Source: Bacillota bacterium
Lineage (GTDB): Bacteria; Bacillota; Desulfotomaculia; Desulfotomaculales; JAJYZD01
Reading direction: 5' to 3'
Length of the DNA: 32,099 nucleotides
Assembly: GCA_021800315.1 (NCBI GenBank)
Contig: JAJYZD010000004.1
Span: forward strand, 1 to 32,099
The position numbers and the translations under genes are program-made. Below are positions 2,293 to 18,088 of the stretch, piece by piece; the first letter of the stretch is position 1; each line of letters begins with the position of its first letter. The notes below the pieces were generated by a model, which saw only the letters and a program-made list of their open reading frames with translations, did no database searches and had not been told where the DNA came from.

Positions 2293-3360
2293 GTGCCCGT
2301 TCCGGAGAAAATCGCCGCCTGGCAGATGACCGTTCCCGGGGAACTTACCCGGGTGGAGTTGCCGGTTCCGCAGCCGGCGCCGGGTGAGGTGCTGGTGGAG
2401 ATAGCCGGCTGCGGCGTTTGCCACACCGACATCGGCTACTTCTACCAGGGGGTGCCCACGGTGACCAAACCGCCGCTCACCCTGGGCCACGAGATCAGCG
2501 GGCGCGTGGTGGCCGGGGAGGAAAGCCTCCTGGGCCAGGAAGTAATCATCCCCGCCGTCATGCCGTGCAACCGTTGTCCCATTTGCGCCGCGGGGCGCGG
2601 CAACCGCTGCCTGGCACAGAAGATGCCGGGTAACAGCCTGGGTATCTACGGGGGCTTTGCCAGCCATATCCCGGTGCCGGCCGCCGACCTGTGCGTGGTG
2701 GGAGACCGCGCCCTGCCGCTCGAGTACCTGGCCGTGGTGGCCGACGCCATCAGCACCCCCTACCAGGCGGCCGTCCGGGCCGACCTGAAACCCGGCGACC
2801 TGGCGATGGTGATCGGGGCCGCCGGCGGCGTGGGAACGTACGTGACCCAGGTGGCCGCGGCCTTCGGAGCCAAAGCCGTGGTGGCGATCGACCGCAACGA
2901 GGAGAAACTGGCCCGTACCACGGGTATTGGCGCCACCCACACCATCAACACCGCCGGTAAGTCGCTCAAAGAGATCAAGGAGGACTTCAAGGCTTACTGC
3001 AAGGCCGCCGGTCTGCCTTCCAACTATGGCTGGAAGATTTTCGAGGTAACCGGCACCAAAGAGGGCCAGGAGATCGCCCTGGACCTTCTGCCCTTCATCG
3101 GCAAGCTGGTCCTTATCGGCTACGCCATCCAGAAGGTGGAGTTCATGTTTTCCCGCCTGATGGCACTGGACGCGGAGATCATCGGAACCTGGGGCTGCCT
3201 GCCGCAATACTACCCGGATGTCCTGAAGATGGTCCTGGACGGCCGGATCCAGGTGAAGCCCTTCGTAGAGATCCGCCCCATGAGCACCATCAGGGAAACC
3301 TTCGCCGAGGCCCACTCCGGGCGCCTGGCCCGGCGGGTGGTCTTGACCCCGGATTTCTGA
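2293..3360 (+). CDS. had: 6-hydroxycyclohex-1-ene-1-carbonyl-CoA dehydrogenase (zinc-type ADH family)
   Basis: GCGVCHTDIGYFYQGVPTVTKPPLTLGHEISGRVV, CNRCPICAAGRGNRC, Rossmann GAAGGVGTYVTQVA; GTG at 2293 preceded by gaaggaggg. Confidence 0.88.
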   Translation: MPVPEKIAAWQMTVPGELTRVELPVPQPAPGEVLVEIAGCGVCHTDIGYFYQGVPTVTKPPLTLGHEISGRVVAGEESLLGQEVIIPAVMPCNRCPICAAGRGNRCLAQKMPGNSLGIYGGFASHIPVPAADLCVVGDRALPLEYLAVVADAISTPYQAAVRADLKPGDLAMVIGAAGGVGTYVTQVAAAFGAKAVVAIDRNEEKLARTTGIGATHTINTAGKSLKEIKEDFKAYCKAAGLPSNYGWKIFEVTGTKEGQEIALDLLPFIGKLVLIGYAIQKVEFMFSRLMALDAEIIGTWGCLPQYYPDVLKMVLDGRIQVKPFVEIRPMSTIRETFAEAHSGRLARRVVLTPDF

Positions 3361-3402
3361 CCCCAGACGTTTCCATCGCAGACCGGGACGGTGCATAATT
3401 CT

Positions 3403-3442
3403 GGAAAAGGATTTGGCGTGGGTTGCGCCGAATCCTTTTTCC
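3403..3442 (+). terminator. Rho-independent terminator-like hairpin after the bam genes
   Basis: ggaaaaggatttggcg / tgggttg / cgccgaatcctttttcc, long near-perfect stem ending in a T-rich arm. Confidence 0.7.
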
Positions 3443-3514
3443 GTGTAATGCGGCCGTCCGCCGGGGTAGCCTGAGAACCGGCGGACGTGGCGAAAAAAGG
3501 GGGCCTGGACGGTT

Positions 3515-4507
3515 TTGGATCCGGTGAACGTTCTCCTGGTGGTGCCGCACGAGGTGGGCAGCACCGACAGGTACGAAGAGGTCTTGCAACGGCGTTTCCC
3601 CACCGAGATAGCCGGCGGAGCCATCCGGATCAGGAAATCGGTCAGCGGCGACCTGCCGGACGAATTCCTGGACACCCACATCATCGGCACCGGCACCTTG
3701 ATCCCGCGCATTCCGGAAATGAAGGACCTCAAGTGGATCATGAGCTTTAGTTCCGGGGTGGACCACTGGCACAAATTCGGCAAAGTGCCGGCCCACGTTC
3801 CCCTGGTCAACCTGCCGGGCGGATCGGCGGTGCCGGTGGCGGAGTTCATCCTGGGCCTCATGTTGACCCTGGCCAAGAAATACAACCGGTTGTGGGACGA
3901 ACAACGGGAGAGAAGATATACCCGCATTTACGGCGACGAGCTGTACGGCAAGACGCTCGGCCTCGTCGGCCTTGGCGGCATCGGGCGCGAGGTGGCCAAA
4001 AGGGCCAAAGGGTTCGACATGCGGATCATCGGCACGGCCACCCGGAAGGTCGAGGTTCCCGGCGTCGACGAAGTCTACCTGGCCGGCCGGGTGGAAGACG
4101 TCATCCGGCAGAGCGACTTCCTGGTCCTGGCCTGCCCGGAGACCGCGGATACTCTGGGCCTGATGAACGAGGCCCGGTTCCGGCTGATGAAGAAGACCGC
4201 CTACCTCATCAACTGCGCCCGCGGGTCCCTGGTGGTCAGGGAAGCCCTGCTAAGGGCCCTGAACGAGGGCTGGATCGCCGGGGCGGCCCAGGATACCTGG
4301 TGGACCAAGGACCCGGTGCCAAGCTACCTGCCGCCGGGGGACGAGATCAGGAACGCCGCAAACCTGATTATCACCCCCCATATCTCCGGCTTTACCAGGA
4401 TGTACGAACAGAGGTTCGGGAATGCTTTTGCCGACAACATCGCCCGCTATTTGCATGGGGAACCGTTGATCAACCTGGTTTCCGGCTTTGGTACCGGCCG
4501 CGCCTGA
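3515..4507 (+). CDS. D-isomer-specific 2-hydroxyacid dehydrogenase family protein
   Basis: LVGLGGIGREVAKRAKGF, NCARGSLVVREALLRALNEGWIAGAAQDTWW, ITPHISGFT; NAD-binding 2-hydroxyacid dehydrogenase pattern. Confidence 0.88.
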   Translation: MDPVNVLLVVPHEVGSTDRYEEVLQRRFPTEIAGGAIRIRKSVSGDLPDEFLDTHIIGTGTLIPRIPEMKDLKWIMSFSSGVDHWHKFGKVPAHVPLVNLPGGSAVPVAEFILGLMLTLAKKYNRLWDEQRERRYTRIYGDELYGKTLGLVGLGGIGREVAKRAKGFDMRIIGTATRKVEVPGVDEVYLAGRVEDVIRQSDFLVLACPETADTLGLMNEARFRLMKKTAYLINCARGSLVVREALLRALNEGWIAGAAQDTWWTKDPVPSYLPPGDEIRNAANLIITPHISGFTRMYEQRFGNAFADNIARYLHGEPLINLVSGFGTGRA

Positions 4508-4548
4508 CCGGCGCAGACCGTATCCCGGCGGCCGGAGGGGGGAAGCGC

Positions 4549-4884
4549 ATGGACGACCGGCAAACCACCGTAGGCGAATTGCGCGCCATGGTCGCCTCTT
4601 TCGTGGAGGAGCGGGACTGGCGGCAGTTCCATTCCGCCAAAAATCTCAGCATGTCCATCGCCATCGAGGCCGCCGAACTGATGGAGTTGTTTCAGTGGAC
4701 GGACGGAGAAGCGGCGGATGACCGGCAGTTGGCGAGGGTCGGGGAAGAGTTGGCCGACGTCGTGATCTATTGTCTTTCCCTGGCCAATGCTTTGGAGCTG
4801 GACCTGGCGCGGGCGGTGCGGGACAAGGTGGAAGCCAACGGCCGGAAATATCCGGCGGCGAGGTTCAGGGGCGGATTCCGGTAG
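4549..4884 (+). CDS. MazG-like nucleotide pyrophosphohydrolase (dCTPase/RS21-C6 type)
   Basis: ATG 4549: FHSAKNLSMSIAIEAAELMELFQWTDG ... EELADVVIYCLSLANALELDL ... KVEANGRKYPAARFRG. Confidence 0.88.
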   Translation: MDDRQTTVGELRAMVASFVEERDWRQFHSAKNLSMSIAIEAAELMELFQWTDGEAADDRQLARVGEELADVVIYCLSLANALELDLARAVRDKVEANGRKYPAARFRGGFR

Positions 4885-4930
4885 CTCCCGGTCAACGTGG
4901 TCTCCGGAGGTGAATGGCGGTTAATTTTTC

Positions 4931-6109
4931 CTATTTAGGCTTTTTCCCTTTGCCTCCGGGAGGACGGCCGGTGTTGACCATGTTGTCCCCAGGGGGCCAC
5001 ATAACCGGGTCGTCCTGCATTATCAGGTTCATGATTCTCAGCAGTTCGTCGCTCGGTTCTTTTTTACGTTTTGTGATTTGCTTTTCCCATTCTTCCATCA
5101 CGGGCAGGCGGATGCCCATAATCATGCACGCGCAATAGAGGGATTCTTCTAAATTGGCAAAATCACTATCGTAGCCGGAGTGAATCAATTCCATAATAGG
5201 GGAAACGCATTGATCTGATAATAGATTGCACCACTCATAAGCCAACATTGTCTGTACACTGAGGTCAGTTTCCCGGGGAAGTAGTTCCAGAAATGCTTGT
5301 TCACTGCCCTGGGATTTTATGTTGCCCAACAACGAGGCGGCGGCAAATCGGAAATCCCAATGCTCATTAAAAAAACACCGTTGTATTCCTCTAACGACAA
5401 CATCATTACCAATCCTGGTTAAAGCATTGATCGACTCCTCTGCCAACATTTCTTCGTTGCAACGGAGGTTGTCGATAAGTACAGGGACGACTACAGTCAT
5501 CTTTAATCCGCCAGCCAACATGATCATATATAATTCTTCATAATCCCGGTATTTCTCGTCCGTAAGGATTGTGAGAATTGTATCGAGAGGCAAATCGTCT
5601 CTAGTTTGTAACGTCTTGACGATGTCTTTCCCATAGGTATAATCCATTTCACCGAGGTTTCTATCTTTATTCCTATGGCAAAAGGCCAATAACTCGTTCA
5701 TAAGTTTGTTTGTCGGCCAGGAAAATAGATCTATACGCCTTTTTATCTTAGGGATACAGCCTGGAGCCATATTGGTAACTTTACGGATCCCTGGAGCCAT
5801 GTGGATCAGGACATTTATATCGGCGTTCACAATCATGTTGTTGTAATACCGAATGACGACGGCATCGGAAACATGCGGCAACCGGTCCAAAACGCTCCGC
5901 AAGGTCAGTTCGGTCTGGGTGAAATTGACGGCGGCGGCGAGCAGTTCCAGGTTGCTTATTTCTCCATATGTTCTACAGCATTCCAGCACAGCCGGGGCCA
6001 GGTCCGGGTCCCGACTGAAGCTGCCGGCGAAATAGCCCACCGCGTGATTCCGGAGAAAGTTCTGCTGATGATATAGAAACGGCTTGACTTGTTGACCTGT
6101 AACCAACAT
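4931..6109 (-). CDS. HEAT-repeat-like protein of unknown function
   Basis: Repeated helical segments (DVVVRGIQRCFFNEHWDFRFAAASLLGNIKSQGSEQAFLELL). Start assigned to ATG at 6109 (MLVTGQQVKPFLYHQQ) behind ggaggtcgg; the ORF also extends to 6223. Lower GC than neighbours. Confidence 0.6.
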   Translation of the reverse strand: MLVTGQQVKPFLYHQQNFLRNHAVGYFAGSFSRDPDLAPAVLECCRTYGEISNLELLAAAVNFTQTELTLRSVLDRLPHVSDAVVIRYYNNMIVNADINVLIHMAPGIRKVTNMAPGCIPKIKRRIDLFSWPTNKLMNELLAFCHRNKDRNLGEMDYTYGKDIVKTLQTRDDLPLDTILTILTDEKYRDYEELYMIMLAGGLKMTVVVPVLIDNLRCNEEMLAEESINALTRIGNDVVVRGIQRCFFNEHWDFRFAAASLLGNIKSQGSEQAFLELLPRETDLSVQTMLAYEWCNLLSDQCVSPIMELIHSGYDSDFANLEESLYCACMIMGIRLPVMEEWEKQITKRKKEPSDELLRIMNLIMQDDPVMWPPGDNMVNTGRPPGGKGKKPK

Positions 6110-6264
6110 TTTACCGACCTCCGAGCCCGGCAACTGCGTCCGGCTTGTTTGCTGATGATTCTGTTTCGCTGCAGGTGCCGCCATTTCCTGCCCGGCCAGA
6201 AACCGGACCCGATGCCGGAACACGTCCGGGCGGCGTTCCGGCGCAACGTCCGGGCGCTGCTGAC

Positions 6265-6342
6265 CCCGAACCCGGGAGCCCTTGTCTTTACTGGTGAACC
6301 ACGGCGGACACGAAGCAATGGCCGCCTGATCAACAATCAGGC
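6265..6342 (+). repeat. attL-like copy of a 78-bp perfect direct repeat
   Basis: cccgaacccgggagcccttgtctttactggtgaaccacggcggacacgaagcaatggccgcctgatcaacaatcaggc, identical at 10638-10715. Confidence 0.9.
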
Positions 6343-6451
6343 AACCCGAGTTTTTGTTAAGTCAGTTAAGGTCAAAAGCCTTATTTTACGCGGGTTTGCG
6401 GGCTGGGAAGTTTTAACTAAGACCCGTTATTTCGGCACATTTTCACCTGCA

Positions 6452-6469
6452 TTGCAGTACTTTTGCAGT
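6452..6469 (+). repeat. Left copy of 18-bp internal direct repeat ttgcagtacttttgcagt (candidate integrase arm-type site)
   Basis: Same 18-mer at 10598-10615; each is inside the element near an att repeat. Confidence 0.6.
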
Positions 6470-6662
6470 GCAAACCGGACCTGCTATGCCCCGCCCTGTG
6501 CGGCTTGGCGGGTTTCGTTGCTGTACGGGAAGGCCGCTCCAAGTGCCGGTCGCTATTTCCCGGCGGGACTTCTTCCGCGTCTTCCCCTATTGGCCGTCCT
6601 TCCCTCCGACAAGCAACCCCTCCCTTGGCCCCGTTGGATCAAAGAGTATTTTTCTCCTCCCC

Positions 6663-6692
6663 TTGTAATCTGTATATACATTCGTATATAAT
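6663..6692 (+). promoter_or_regulatory. Candidate brnTA promoter with overlapping palindromic operator
   Basis: ttgtaa (6663-6668), 18-bp spacer, tataat (6687-6692); perfect inverted repeat tatatac-attc-gtatata at 6673-6690. Confidence 0.5.
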
Positions 6693-6698
6693 AAGTAC

Positions 6699-7007
6699 AT
6701 GGACGCTATAGAATTTTCGGGCTTCCAGTGGGACCCGGGCAACCGGGAAAAATGCCAGAAGCATGGCGTTTCGATTGAAACGATAGAGGCGCTTTTTCAG
6801 TGTCCCCTGGCTGTTTTACCGGATGAAGCCCATTCCCAAGATGAACAACGTTTCAGTGCCATAGGTAAAACGGATGATGGACGACACGTGTTCGTGGTCT
6901 TCACCCTACGCCGTGATGAGGAAGCTATCTTAATTCGTCCCATAAGTGCTCGTTATATGCACGAGAAGGAGGTTATCGCTTATGAAAAAGCAAATCCCGA
7001 CCTTTAA
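6699..7007 (+). CDS. brnT: BrnT family toxin
   Basis: FQWDPGNREKCQKHGVSIETIEALFQCPLAVLPDEAHSQDEQRFSAIGKTDDGRHVFVVFTLR...IRPISARYMHEKE, the BrnT pattern; followed by brnA. Confidence 0.88.
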   Translation: MDAIEFSGFQWDPGNREKCQKHGVSIETIEALFQCPLAVLPDEAHSQDEQRFSAIGKTDDGRHVFVVFTLRRDEEAILIRPISARYMHEKEVIAYEKANPDL

Positions 7008-7227
7008 GACTGACAAGGAAGCCGAACACTTTGTTGCAAGTGCTGATCTTAGCAATTATGACCTATCTGGCGCGCGCATGGTTAAATTCGAGTTAAAGCC
7101 TAAAGATAAAGCCATAAGCCTGCGTCTATCGGAAGAACTCTTTAAGGCCATACAAAAGAAAGCAGAGAGCGAAGGAGTTCCTTATCAAAGGCTTATTCGT
7201 CAGGCTATTGAAAGAGAGGTTTTATAG
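6982..7227 (+). CDS. brnA: BrnA family antitoxin / CopG-type
   Basis: MKKQIPTFKTDKEAEHFVASADLSNYDLSGARMVKFELKPKDKAISLRLSEELFKAIQKKAESEGVPYQRLIRQAIEREVL; ATG at 6982 overlaps the brnT end. Confidence 0.85.
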   Translation: MKKQIPTFKTDKEAEHFVASADLSNYDLSGARMVKFELKPKDKAISLRLSEELFKAIQKKAESEGVPYQRLIRQAIEREVL

Positions 7228-7281
7228 ATTATTTCGTCCAAAACCATGTAATCTTTGAACGCTTCCGATTTGTATTAGACT

Positions 7282-7310
7282 GCCCCCGGACTTCACCGGG
7301 GGCATTTTGT
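7282..7310 (+). terminator. Terminator after brnTA
   Basis: gcccccgg-acttca-ccgggggc followed by attttgt. Confidence 0.7.
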
Positions 7311-7439
7311 GTTTTGCTCGTTGGATGGGACGGCCGCTCCCGAGAGGATGGACTGCCCATGTGGGCGGCCACCCATTACCCGCCGGCAGCATACTTCGGC
7401 GGCCGCCCCGGCAACGGCGGGCGGGAGAGGTGAAACGGA

Positions 7440-8560
7440 TTGGCTGATTCCATGATAACCCAGGCGGCGCAGGCCGTCAATCCCGGCCCGGCCGACTTCC
7501 TGGCCGCCCTATACGGAGATAGGCCGCCCGGGTGGTTGGTAGCCTGGACCCGCCAGGACCGGGTGACCAGGTGGCTGCCCGCCGGCGACCACGACGAGGC
7601 GGCCCGGCAGGCCATGACCCTGGCGGGTAATTACGATATCTATTTTGGCGTCGGAGTCCAGGGAGACAAAGGCAGGACCAACCAGCGCGGCAAGGCCGAC
7701 ACTGTGATAGCAATTCCCGGCCTGTGGCTGGACGTGGACTGCCGGGGCGGTGCACATTCGGCAACCAACCTGCCCACCCTGGACGAGGCCCGCTCATTGG
7801 TGGGACTGTTCGGCCTGCAGCCGTCTGTCGTCGTCCATACGGGCGGCGGTGTGCATGTCTACTGGATATTCCGGCGTCCCTGGGTATTCCGGGATAGCAG
7901 CGACCGGCAAAGGGCCGCCGACCAGGTGGCCGGGTTCCAGAGGGGGATGATAGCACTGGCGGCCGCCCGTGACTGGCGGCTCGATAATACCTCTGACTTG
8001 GCGCGGGTGTTGAGATTGCCCGGAACCACGAACCGCAAAATGACCCCACGCGCTCCCGTGACGGTGGTGGGCTGGCATCCGGAGCGGCGGTACAGCTACC
8101 AGGACGTGGAGGCGGCCATTGAGCGGCTGGAGATCCAGGCCGCTGCCGCGCGGCAGGCTGCCGGCGGCGGTGATCGGCGCGGTACTACCCAGGCCGGACA
8201 GGGCGACCAGGAGCGGCAGGACACCGGCCCGCTCCCACGCGCGGACCTCATAGCACAGAGTTGCGCCTGGATCATGCGCTGCCGGGTGAATGCGGCCACC
8301 CTGGCCGAACCCGAGTGGTACGGCATGGTCGGCGTGATCGCCCGGTGCCAGGATGGGGCGGCCATTGTCCACAAGTGGAGCAGGGCATATCCGAGGTATT
8401 CGGAGCGCGAAACGGACGCCAAAATCAAGCACGCGATGGAGGACGCAGGACCGATCACCTGCGAGCGGGTACGGCAGAACTTCGGCGGCTGGTGCATGGA
8501 TTGTCCCCATCGAGTGACCTCACCCGTCGTCCTGGGCCGGGAGAGGCAGACCCCGGCATG
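7440..8560 (+). pseudogene. RepB/P4-type primase domain protein, apparently 3'-truncated
   Basis: ADTVIAIPGLWLDVDCRGGAHS, VVVHTGGGVHVYWIFRRPWVF, LARVLRLPGTTNRK, ITCERVRQNFGGWCMDCPHRVTSPVVLGRE. No helicase half follows; the reading frame runs into recombinase-coding DNA (ORF 7440-8594). Confidence 0.65.
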
Positions 8561-8879
8561 GCGGCCGGTTTCGCCGAGCTTGAACGGAACATGATTGCCG
8601 AGCGGACAACCCAGGCCCTGGCCCATAAGAAGGCCCACAGAGAAGCCTACGGCCCCCCCCCCGGGATTCGACCGGGACGGCAATTTCCTGGTGGAAAACG
8701 AGGTTGAGCAGGCTACCGTCCGGATGATCCTGGACATGAAGCGGGCTGGCGCGTCCATCAACGAGATTGCCCGCCGGCTAAACAGGGACGGCATACCCAC
8801 CAAGAAGGGCGGCAAGTGGTACGCAAGCACCGTCAGCAACATCCTGCGGAACTCTCTGCATGGGAAGGAGGCGGCATAG
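8555..8879 (+). pseudogene. Serine recombinase remnant (end of catalytic domain plus recombinase/HTH part)
   Basis: FAELERNMIAERTTQALAHKKAHREAYGPPPG (frame 2), then after a 10-C run FDRDGNFLVENEVEQATVRMILDMKRAGASINEIARRLNRDGIPTKKGGKWYASTVSNILRNSLHG (frame 3). The N-terminal catalytic Ser region is absent. Confidence 0.75.
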
Positions 8880-9086
8880 GTGGACGCATTGCCAACCAAG
8901 TTATACACGGTGGAGCAGGCCGGGCAATATCTGCTGATCCCGGAAAAGCGAATCCGCACATGGTTACGGGAAGGCCGGTTACATGGCTACAAGCTGGGGG
9001 GCGAGTGGAGAATCAGCGAGGAAGACCTTGAAGAGTTTCTTGCCTCCGGCTACACGGGCAATAAGCCGCAAACCAAAGGGGAATAA
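8880..9086 (+). CDS. Excisionase-family helix-turn-helix DNA-binding protein
   Basis: LYTVEQAGQYLLIPEKRIRTWLREGRLHGYKLGGEWRISEEDLEEFLAS, typical xis/MerR-like HTH (HTH_17). Confidence 0.85.
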   Translation: MDALPTKLYTVEQAGQYLLIPEKRIRTWLREGRLHGYKLGGEWRISEEDLEEFLASGYTGNKPQTKGE

Positions 9087-9481
9087 CCCGGCCCGTTTCA
9101 ACGGAGAGACCCCCAGGAGACGCTACAAGCGACGAGAACCGAAAAAGGTACATTCATACCATCCCGCCCAAGATCGAAGCGGAAACAGGCCGTAGCAACG
9201 GCAACCCCTCACCCTGGCAAAACGGAACAAACGGAACGGAACAGAACGCCCCAAGGAAAAAAAGCCAGAAACGACCCGGCCTCCTGCGGTCCTGCGAACC
9301 TTCATAAACCTTCAGGGGGGTAGGCCGTCCGGACACCGTCAGCCCGGTGGCCGAACCGAACCGAACCGAATCAGCGAAGGTAAAAAGCCCGTTCCCACGG
9401 GGCGGACATCAGGCCGGACGGGCAAACGAAGCGAAGCGGCGAAGCGGAGCGATCAACAGAGCGAACCAGGAATTTCACGCG

Positions 9482-10594
9482 ATGATAAACAAAAAAACGG
9501 AGCGGGAGGCGGAAGCGGTGGCGGGCAAAGCGGCAAAGCCCAAAGCGGACAAGCCCACAAAGACCAAGCGGCGTGGACACGGGGAAGGAACGGTCTATTT
9601 CCATGAGGGGAAGCAGCTTTGGGTAACCCAGGTTACCATAGGCGGCAAGCGACGGACCCTCTACTGTTCAAGACCAGCAAGGAGGTACAGGACAAGAAGG
9701 CGGCCCTTGAGGCCGAAGTCATTAAGGGCACATACGCCGAACCATCGGCCGTTACTTTTGGGCAATGGCTTGCGAGATGGCTTGACGTTTACGTGAAACC
9801 GGCCGTTAGAGATACTGTCCACGCAGACTACGAAAGCATTATTAAGCTGCATATCCTGCCGGCGCTGGGTGATATGCCGATTCAAAAACTGCGGCCTTCG
9901 GACTTACAAGCCTTCTACAAGGCCAAACTTGAAGGCGGTCGGTTGGACGGCAAGGAAGGCGGACTCTCCACCCGTACGGTTAGGCTATTACACTTTCTTA
10001 TTGGCAAGGCGCTCAAACAGGCCTTCAAAGAAGTACTGGCGGCCAGAAACGTGAACGAAGCAACCATTTTGCCGAAGATGGTTAAAAAGGAACCGCGCTA
10101 TTTAGCACCCCAAGAACTTGAAACTTTTATCGGTGTTATGGCGCAAAGCAGGCACTTCGCGCCGTTATGATGGATATCGGAACCGGCCTGCGCCGTGGCG
10201 AATTATTGGGATTGCAGCGTGATTGTGTGGATCTGGAGAGGAAAACCATCACTGTTCGGCGTTCATTGGTACGGCGGCTGAAAGGCGCTCCCGTAATTCA
10301 CGAACCAAAGACGGCGGCCGGCGGATAGAACCACGAAACTCTTCCCGCCGCGTAAAAGCATATCTGCGCAAGGCTGGCATGCCGGATGCTTCCCTGCACG
10401 GCCTTCGGCATACCCACGCAACGGAACTACTGCGGATGGGGACCGCACTGAAAACCATTCAGAAGCGGCTGGGACATGCGAACTTTTCCAGTACAAACAT
10501 CTACACGCACGTCGTCGAGGAGCTGGACAGGGACGCGGCCGACAAGATCAACGGCGTTCTGAAGGCAGCCGCCCGGCGGACGGCCCGAAAATAA
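9482..10594 (+). pseudogene. int: Tyrosine recombinase/integrase with at least three frame disruptions and an internal deletion
   Basis: Frame 2 to ~9660 (RRGHGEGTVYFHEGKQLWVTQVTIGGKRRTLY), frame 1 to ~10160 (TSKEVQDKKAALEAEVIKGTY...TFGQWLARWLDVYVKP...), frame 3 (AVMMDIGTGLRRGELLGLQRDCVDL...IHEPKTAAGG*), frame 2 from ~10325 (YLRKAGMPDASLHGLRHTHATELLRMGTALKTIQKRLGHANFSSTNIYTHV). Confidence 0.88.
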
Positions 10595-10597
10595 CTT

Positions 10598-10615
10598 TTG
10601 CAGTACTTTTGCAGT
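10598..10615 (+). repeat. Right copy of 18-bp internal direct repeat ttgcagtacttttgcagt
   Basis: Identical to 6452-6469; extended locally to tandem acttttgcagtacttttgcagtac. Confidence 0.6.
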
Positions 10616-10637
10616 ACGAGCCCAATGAAGAAGGACT

Positions 10638-10715
10638 CCCGAACCCGGGAGCCCTTGTCTTTACTGGTGAACCACGGCGGACACGAAGCAATGGCCGCCT
10701 GATCAACAATCAGGC
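10638..10715 (+). repeat. attR-like copy of the 78-bp perfect direct repeat
   Basis: Identical to 6265-6342; lies just 3' of the integrase C-terminus. Confidence 0.9.
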
Positions 10716-10721
10716 GGCCAT
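10691..10721. terminator. Perfect 13-bp-stem hairpin 3' of the acyl-CoA synthetase, overlapping attR
   Basis: atggccgcctgat-caaca-atcaggcggccat; lies just beyond the minus-strand stop at 10740; no strong U-tract. Confidence 0.55.
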
Positions 10722-10739
10722 TATAACCGGAGAAACCGC

Positions 10740-13137: not shown

Positions 13138-13152
13138 TCAGGGCAACCGAAT

Positions 13153-13331
13153 AAGGAAACAGGTGCCTCCGTAAGAGGAGAATAGGAAAGTCCGTACGGC
13201 GAGCCCGGGTTCGCCGGAAGGCGCGGTCCCGCCACTGTAAACGGTCAGTTTTGCCGCCGTAACGCCACTGGAGCTTCTCCGGGAAGGCGCGGCCCGACGA
13301 TGACCCGTGAGCCAGGAGACCTGCCTGTTTC
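13153..13331 (+). ncRNA. Cobalamin (AdoCbl) riboswitch
   Basis: aaacaggtgcctccgtaagaggagaataggaaagtccgt ... gcggtcccgccactgtaa ... cgccactgg ... gggaaggcgcggcccgacgatgacccgtgagccaggagacctgcctgttt; B12 box and flanking paired elements, upstream of cobS. Confidence 0.93.
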
Positions 13332-13383
13332 GTGTAGTCGTGTCTTCGCGGAAAAGGACACGGTTTTTTCCGAGGGTGATGGC

Positions 13384-17299: not shown

Positions 17300-18088
17300 T
17301 TGTCGTTTGCGACTGCCTTCATCGGAGGTACCGGGGTGTACGACCCCGACATTTTGGACGATGCGCGGCTGGAGACGGTGGATACCCCGTACGGGGAGGC
17401 GGTCGTCAATCTCGGCCGGTTCAACGGGCGGAACGTGGTCTTTCTGGCCCGCCACGGGGCCGGCCACTCCGTGCCGCCGCACCGCGTCAACTACCGGGCC
17501 AACATGGCCGCTTTGAAGAAACTCGGCGTTCAATCGGTGCTGGCTACCGCGGCCGTGGGTTCCCTGAATCCGTCCATGCAACCGGGCGACTTCGTGGCTG
17601 TGGATCAGTTCATCGACCTGACCAAGTCCCGGCCCCAGACCTACTTCGAGGGGGGGGACGAAGGCGTCGTGCACACCGACATGACCGATCCGTACTGTCC
17701 CCGGATCAGGGAACTGTTAGGGCGGGCGGGGGGATCCTTAAAGCTGGTCGTCCACGCGGGCGGGACCTACGTCTGCACCGAGGGCCCGCGATTTGAAACA
17801 CCGGCCGAGGTCCGGATGATCCAGCATGTGGGCGGCGACCTGGTGGGCATGACCGGGGTCCCGGAAGTGGTCCTGGCCCGCGAACTGGATTTGTGTTACA
17901 GTACGGTGGCCATGGTCACCAATTTTGCCGCCGGCATATCCCCCACCCGTCTGTCCCATCAGGAAGTGCTCGACGTGATGGCCCAAAACGCCGGAAACAT
18001 CCAACGTCTGGCCATGCAGGTCATAGACTGGCTGGGCGCGGACCGCGCCTGTCCCTGCCGGGGGGACGGTACCGCTCCGCGGTTGTAG
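17300..18088 (+). CDS. mtnP: MTA/MTI-type purine nucleoside phosphorylase (MtnP family)
   Basis: FIGGTGVYDPDILDDA, RHGAGHSVPPHRVNYRANMAALKKLGV, TYVCTEGPRFETPAEVRMI, MVTNFAAGISPTRLSHQEV; TTG 17300 after aaaggagaa. Confidence 0.88.
   Translation: MSFATAFIGGTGVYDPDILDDARLETVDTPYGEAVVNLGRFNGRNVVFLARHGAGHSVPPHRVNYRANMAALKKLGVQSVLATAAVGSLNPSMQPGDFVAVDQFIDLTKSRPQTYFEGGDEGVVHTDMTDPYCPRIRELLGRAGGSLKLVVHAGGTYVCTEGPRFETPAEVRMIQHVGGDLVGMTGVPEVVLARELDLCYSTVAMVTNFAAGISPTRLSHQEVLDVMAQNAGNIQRLAMQVIDWLGADRACPCRGDGTAPRL

Follow-up and report, generated by a model that had tools for sequence, protein, structure and literature searches.

A decayed integrative element in a Desulfotomaculales genome with a probable tRNA-Lys-derived attachment core beside a protein gene

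Two identical 78-bp direct repeats in a Desulfotomaculales genome probably bound a small, decayed integrative element whose attachment (att) repeats are made up of a core derived from tRNA-Lys and a piece of the element's own integrase-side (P') arm, and which lost a tandem partner or re-used a scar and sits at a hairpin behind acs that mimics an anticodon arm. Most of this is ordinary biology, the exception being the position beside the hairpin of a protein gene rather than at a tRNA gene.

The repeat pair

The window, by which we mean the whole stretch of 32,099 nucleotides that was analysed, carries the same 78 bp at 6265-6342 and 10638-10715, and the flanking bases diverge at once on both sides. 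The pair encloses a 4.3-kb interior, the whole stretch from repeat to repeat being 4.4 kb, and no other family of direct repeats in the window reaches even 40 bp. An earlier reading made from the letters alone (the sequence-only reading) had reported this perfect repeat with its abrupt flanks, and both were seen again when we rechecked it. The idea that the 78-mer is a dispersed repeat was rejected because, besides the two copies, the only match in the 3.48-Mb assembly is a single one of 78%, which is the tRNA-Lys locus of the same genome. The match in G014, from the search among relatives, sits among pilin-like genes. The two copies and the adjoining end of the element are as follows.

6265-6342, minus strand: left (HEAT-side) att repeat, identical to 10638-10715, with the tRNA-Lys match and a P' match to contig C335; it is made up of 27 nt of the P' arm (6265-6291) and a diverged tRNA-Lys 3' half (6292-6342)
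10638-10715, minus strand: right (acs-side) att repeat, identical to the left copy, with the tRNA-Lys match; P' arm, 27 nt (10638-10664), and diverged tRNA-Lys 3' half (10665-10715)
6343-6541, plus strand: P-arm end of the element with one arm-site doublet, 82% identical to contig C243
6452-6470, plus strand: the P-arm doublet, TTGCAGTACTTTTGCAGTG, inside the P-arm end

The interior genes and the state of the element

The toxin-antitoxin, xis-like and primase genes that had been noticed in the interior were all recovered with profiles, and the integrase gene, whose stop codon is at 10592-10594, does end 43 bp before the right copy begins at 10638.

6699-7007, plus strand: BrnT-type toxin gene (PF04365, E 6.6e-22)
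6982-7227, plus strand: BrnA/CopG-type antitoxin gene (PF12441, E 7e-27)
7440-8594, plus strand: truncated primase/helicase of 384 aa (phrog_2478, E 3.7e-19)
8556-8879, plus strand: serine recombinase C-terminal fragment (PF07508, E 1.1e-13; phrog_95 positions 241-310 only)
8880-9086, plus strand: excisionase-like wHTH protein (TIGR01764 above cut-off; HTH_17)
9482-10594, plus strand: tyrosine integrase pseudogene (PF14659, PF00589; tblastn)

The sequence-only reading had missed that the integrase and the primase are broken, that a serine-recombinase fragment is present and that the 78-mer resembles tRNA-Lys. When the integrase was compared by tblastn with four intact relatives of about 390-400 aa that are 56-61% identical to it, frameshifts were found near 9664 and 10165 and a deletion of about 40-50 aa near 10320; there is thus no intact integrase frame of the kind that an active element has. 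Most relatives of the primase have open frames of about 850-1110 aa, the bulk of them 850-1000 aa, as against 384 aa here. The serine-recombinase frame is broken at a C-run into two overlapping frames, and the fragment interrupts the module. Since the frames of acs and of the HEAT gene are intact, these lesions are unlikely to come from general sequencing error. With both integrase and primase broken the element is unable to excise itself, and we infer that it is immobile on its own and now fixed. A plasmid search returned a match to brnT only, and viral contigs searched with the primase and with an exact att piece gave no match.

The att core and tRNA-Lys

On the minus strand the 78-mer reads as the 3' half of tRNA-Lys(UUU) in diverged form, running from the anticodon arm to CCA and followed by 27 nt; the order is CCTGA-TTGTTGA-TCAGG (anticodon arm), TTCGTGT (T loop), CACCA and then GTAAAGACAAGGGCTCCCGGGTTCGGG. 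It matches the 3' half of the genome's own intact tRNA-Lys, together with the trailing stem, at 78% (54 of 70 positions, ungapped, E 1.4e-10), and the alignment score of 91 compares with a maximum of 36.5 across 2981 random stretches of the window. When 51 distinct tRNAs were compared, tRNA-Lys(UUU) scored best with 24, the best other isoacceptor reaching 16. The Rfam tRNA model (RF00005), which does find the same stretch of the intact tRNA-Lys, gives no hit on the 78-mer, and the T stem of the 78-mer is broken; therefore the claim of homology is limited to primary sequence, and at that level the core is a diverged tRNA-Lys relic. The repeats had been described as not being at a tRNA gene. This is right insofar as ARAGORN found no tRNA in the window and there is no intact tRNA at the site, and wrong insofar as the repeat is itself the 3' half of a tRNA-Lys, though diverged, and the integrase is one of a group whose targets are tRNA ends. 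The intact tRNA-Lys(UUU) that gives the 78% match stands beside another intact tyrosine integrase, and a second intact tRNA-Lys is present in the genome. At 1475-2939 of L003 (G000:C227) an intact tRNA-Lys(UUU) has an intact tyrosine integrase of 435 aa directly behind it, which is another element of the same genome, at the true tRNA-Lys site.

The integrase group and its target sites

In 23 of 29 cases, related integrases in the order stop no more than about 170 bp from the 3' end of a convergent tRNA (the uncertain case L063 was left out of this count), so that the integrase of the window falls in a group that inserts at tRNA 3' ends. Its intact relatives, 56-61% identical, are in Desulfofundulus, Desulfotomaculum copahuensis and a Desulfovirgula MAG. 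Where both copies of a relative's att repeat are visible the repeats start at tRNA position 31-37, and the distal repeats of solitary relatives (41, 46 and 64 bp) end 1-6 nt past CCA. At L081, at tRNA-Gly(CCC) in a single-contig genome, the repeat extends through the integrase-side arm and two att-plus-P' copies of 165 bp, 97% identical, lie at 9479-9643 and about 17319-17483, which is probably a tandem array.

Most relatives have, between integrase and core, a (C)AAGG stretch that often opens a stem, and a short direct doublet. The doublet of the window is in the same place as theirs.

10596-10616, plus strand: integrase arm-site doublet TTTTGCAGTACTTTTGCAGTA

Doublets in the equivalent place were seen in C335, C117, L041, L047, L050 and L053, and from their position and repetition they would be arm sites of the integrase. 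When the arm doublet was looked for across the order, the hits outside its own genome had neither an integrase relative nor a tRNA nearby and looked like coding sequence, so they were discarded.

Two of the relatives, in Desulfofundulus australicus DSM 11792 and Desulfotomaculum copahuensis LMa1, are at tRNA-Ala CGC sites. They share with the window element the 56-61% integrase identity and the order of arm doublet and CAAGG stretch from integrase to core, whereas their integrase and tRNA target are intact. The window element also resembles the islands at tRNA genes collected in Islander, which lists 2083 anticodon-centred islands and 125 tandems (PMC4383910), in that a tyrosine integrase ends at the att site, the repeat is the 3' half of a tRNA from the anticodon on, and tandem arrays are known there. 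Unlike those islands, the element is dead, its diverged core sits behind a protein gene and no tRNA gene is regenerated. It descends from and works like the anticodon-centred tRNA islands, and fails one defining feature, the restored tRNA.

Element arm DNA in both repeats

Sibling elements in the same genome, on contigs C335, C243, C246 and C117, have arms like those of the window (C335 on the integrase side, C243 and C246 on the P side), while their cores are of tRNA-Val and tRNA-Gly and their cargo is different. C335 has a tRNA-Val(CAC) core half without its 5' half, a core that is also found at an intact tRNA-Val on C117, and its integrase-side arm is almost base for base like that of the window, with GTAAAGACAAGG, a stem, CCTTCTTCATT and the doublet. 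In C243 the left (P) arm of the window, at 82%, meets the 3' half of tRNA-Gly(GCC) at the anticodon and the native flank is unrelated; the P-side arm and brnT region of C243 and C246 are likewise 82% identical to the window's. Since the arms match across different tRNA cores, GTAAAGACAAGG and the stem are element DNA and not host DNA.

Among these siblings, L118 (G000:C335) has at about 2600-8900 an apparent tandem junction at a tRNA-Val core, and the neighbouring element there encodes, by inspection, a relaxase-like protein, a CopG-like protein and a replication-type ATPase. In L119 (G000:C243), an IscB-type-nuclease-like protein, recognised by eye, is encoded at 368-1432 in the sibling element beside the tRNA-Gly junction, and a small toxin-like ORF stands in place of the window's brnT.

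Over its last 26-27 nt the 78-mer matches the P' arm of C335, and the 27 nt of this arm lie at both cores of the window, as in a tandem array. The P' arm is absent from the distal repeats of solitary relatives, and one insertion into a virgin site would not have placed it in the HEAT-side copy. Its presence in that copy therefore indicates the loss of a tandem partner or the re-use of a scar, and it suggests that the element was once one of a tandem pair. Nothing recognisable of a second element or its remains was found in the left flank (6100-6264) beyond the 27 nt. Under either course the extra P' DNA in both copies explains the length of the block, and a tandem copy accounts for its perfect identity as well. 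The length had been called unusual, and its likely cause is the roughly 27 bp of the element's own integrase-side arm that both copies contain.

The sequence-only reading took the repeats for a defined attL/attR pair, which as a rival explanation would be the clean ends of an element that is recent and functional, its attP and attB having 78 bp in common at the site of a protein gene. The perfect identity, the gene content and the layout agree with this, and relatives of the same layout support the view that an integrase made the att pair that surrounds this small element. The pair is not clean, because the HEAT-side junction has extra element DNA that solitary relatives lack in their distal repeats, the integrase is broken in three places and the core is derived from a tRNA; we therefore regard the clean pair as highly improbable.

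The HEAT side and the assembly

A search with the acs-side DNA in 40 relatives gave no sister locus that could show an empty site, and the HEAT protein had no homologue either among 113 genomes of the order or in a scan of the genome_contigs collection. The HEAT-repeat protein itself, encoded at 4931-6223 of the window, was possibly also acquired. Elsewhere in the window a cobalamin riboswitch (13144-13342, Rfam RF00174) lies upstream of cobS/cobT-type genes. With 342 contigs and a completeness of 86%, the 3.48-Mb assembly is fragmented, and the genome holds several related elements with common ends, which, with a HEAT-like protein that has no relative in the order, would fit a contig misassembled at one repeat so as to join unrelated DNA to the element. 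Such an artefact is very unlikely, since the core is unlike every sibling core found in the genome and there is no third close copy of the 78-mer to bridge through.

The hairpin behind acs

No tRNA 5' half is present at the acs side, so that neither copy completes an intact tRNA gene; the place expected for it is occupied by a hairpin.

10690-10722, minus strand: perfect hairpin AATGGCCGCCTGAT-TGTTG-ATCAGGCGGCCATT, about 20 nt behind the acs stop codon

The stem is 14 bp long, the right copy of the 78-mer starts inside it, and the 105-nt stretch with the hairpin has a folding z-score of -3.3. Its CCTGA/TCAGG part is the anticodon stem of tRNA-Lys, and seven of the stem pairs join bases beyond the repeat (AATGGCC) perfectly to seven inside it. 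The acs loci of many relatives have an intrinsic terminator at this place, with other sequences and no tRNA. We infer that the hairpin mimics the anticodon arm of tRNA-Lys and that the element settled at this mimic.

A copy of tRNA-Lys could instead have stood behind acs and received the element by normal integration, its 5' half being deleted later so that acs was fused to the anticodon arm, while the att copies decayed and gene conversion kept them identical. The core does derive from tRNA-Lys, one copy could be lost since a second intact one exists, and att repeats normally begin at the anticodon. On the other hand, the pairing of AATGGCC, seven bases outside with seven inside, is not expected from a random deletion (about 6e-5 by chance), relatives in the order lack a tRNA after acs, and the P' DNA in the HEAT-side copy is left unexplained. 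We consider this course of events rather unlikely.

Proposed history

The probable history of the element, then, would begin in a group of tyrosine integrases that insert in the anticodon-to-CCA half of Desulfotomaculales tRNA genes. The 78-mer would combine 27 nt of the P' arm with the att core, which is the 3' half of a tRNA-Lys(UUU) in diverged form. Either a second element with the same att may once have followed in tandem and been deleted 27 nt into its P' arm, or the element may have entered the scar of an earlier one. It would have come to sit at the acs hairpin mimic instead of a tRNA gene, and with its integrase dead it would now be fixed. Against this history, the site would look much the same if a deletion had removed the tRNA 5' half, and there is neither a tRNA 5' half, nor a trace of a second element past the left copy, nor a signal from the Rfam tRNA model; in so fragmented an assembly the left junction may also be misassembled. 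Its weakest point is that the right arm of the hairpin is in both copies, which a single crossover by the integrase in the loop does not explain; no convincing copy of a native distal end with this right arm was found in the rest of the genome.

A tentative extension, which taken as a whole we hold to be possible and somewhat doubtful, is that the lineage moved from tRNA-Lys to the terminator hairpin of a protein gene that mimics an anticodon arm (CCTGA-7-TCAGG), that the decaying tRNA half survived as a fossil in an attP which gained the right arm of the hairpin, and that insertion restores the terminator as such elements normally restore the tRNA.

What looked like a 78-bp "non-tRNA" att pair is thus dissected, by comparison with siblings, into part tRNA fossil and part element arm. 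If the change of target is true, it would be a snapshot of tRNA-targeting integrases moving to new sites by way of hairpins that resemble anticodon arms, and it would bear on the prediction of secondary integration sites.
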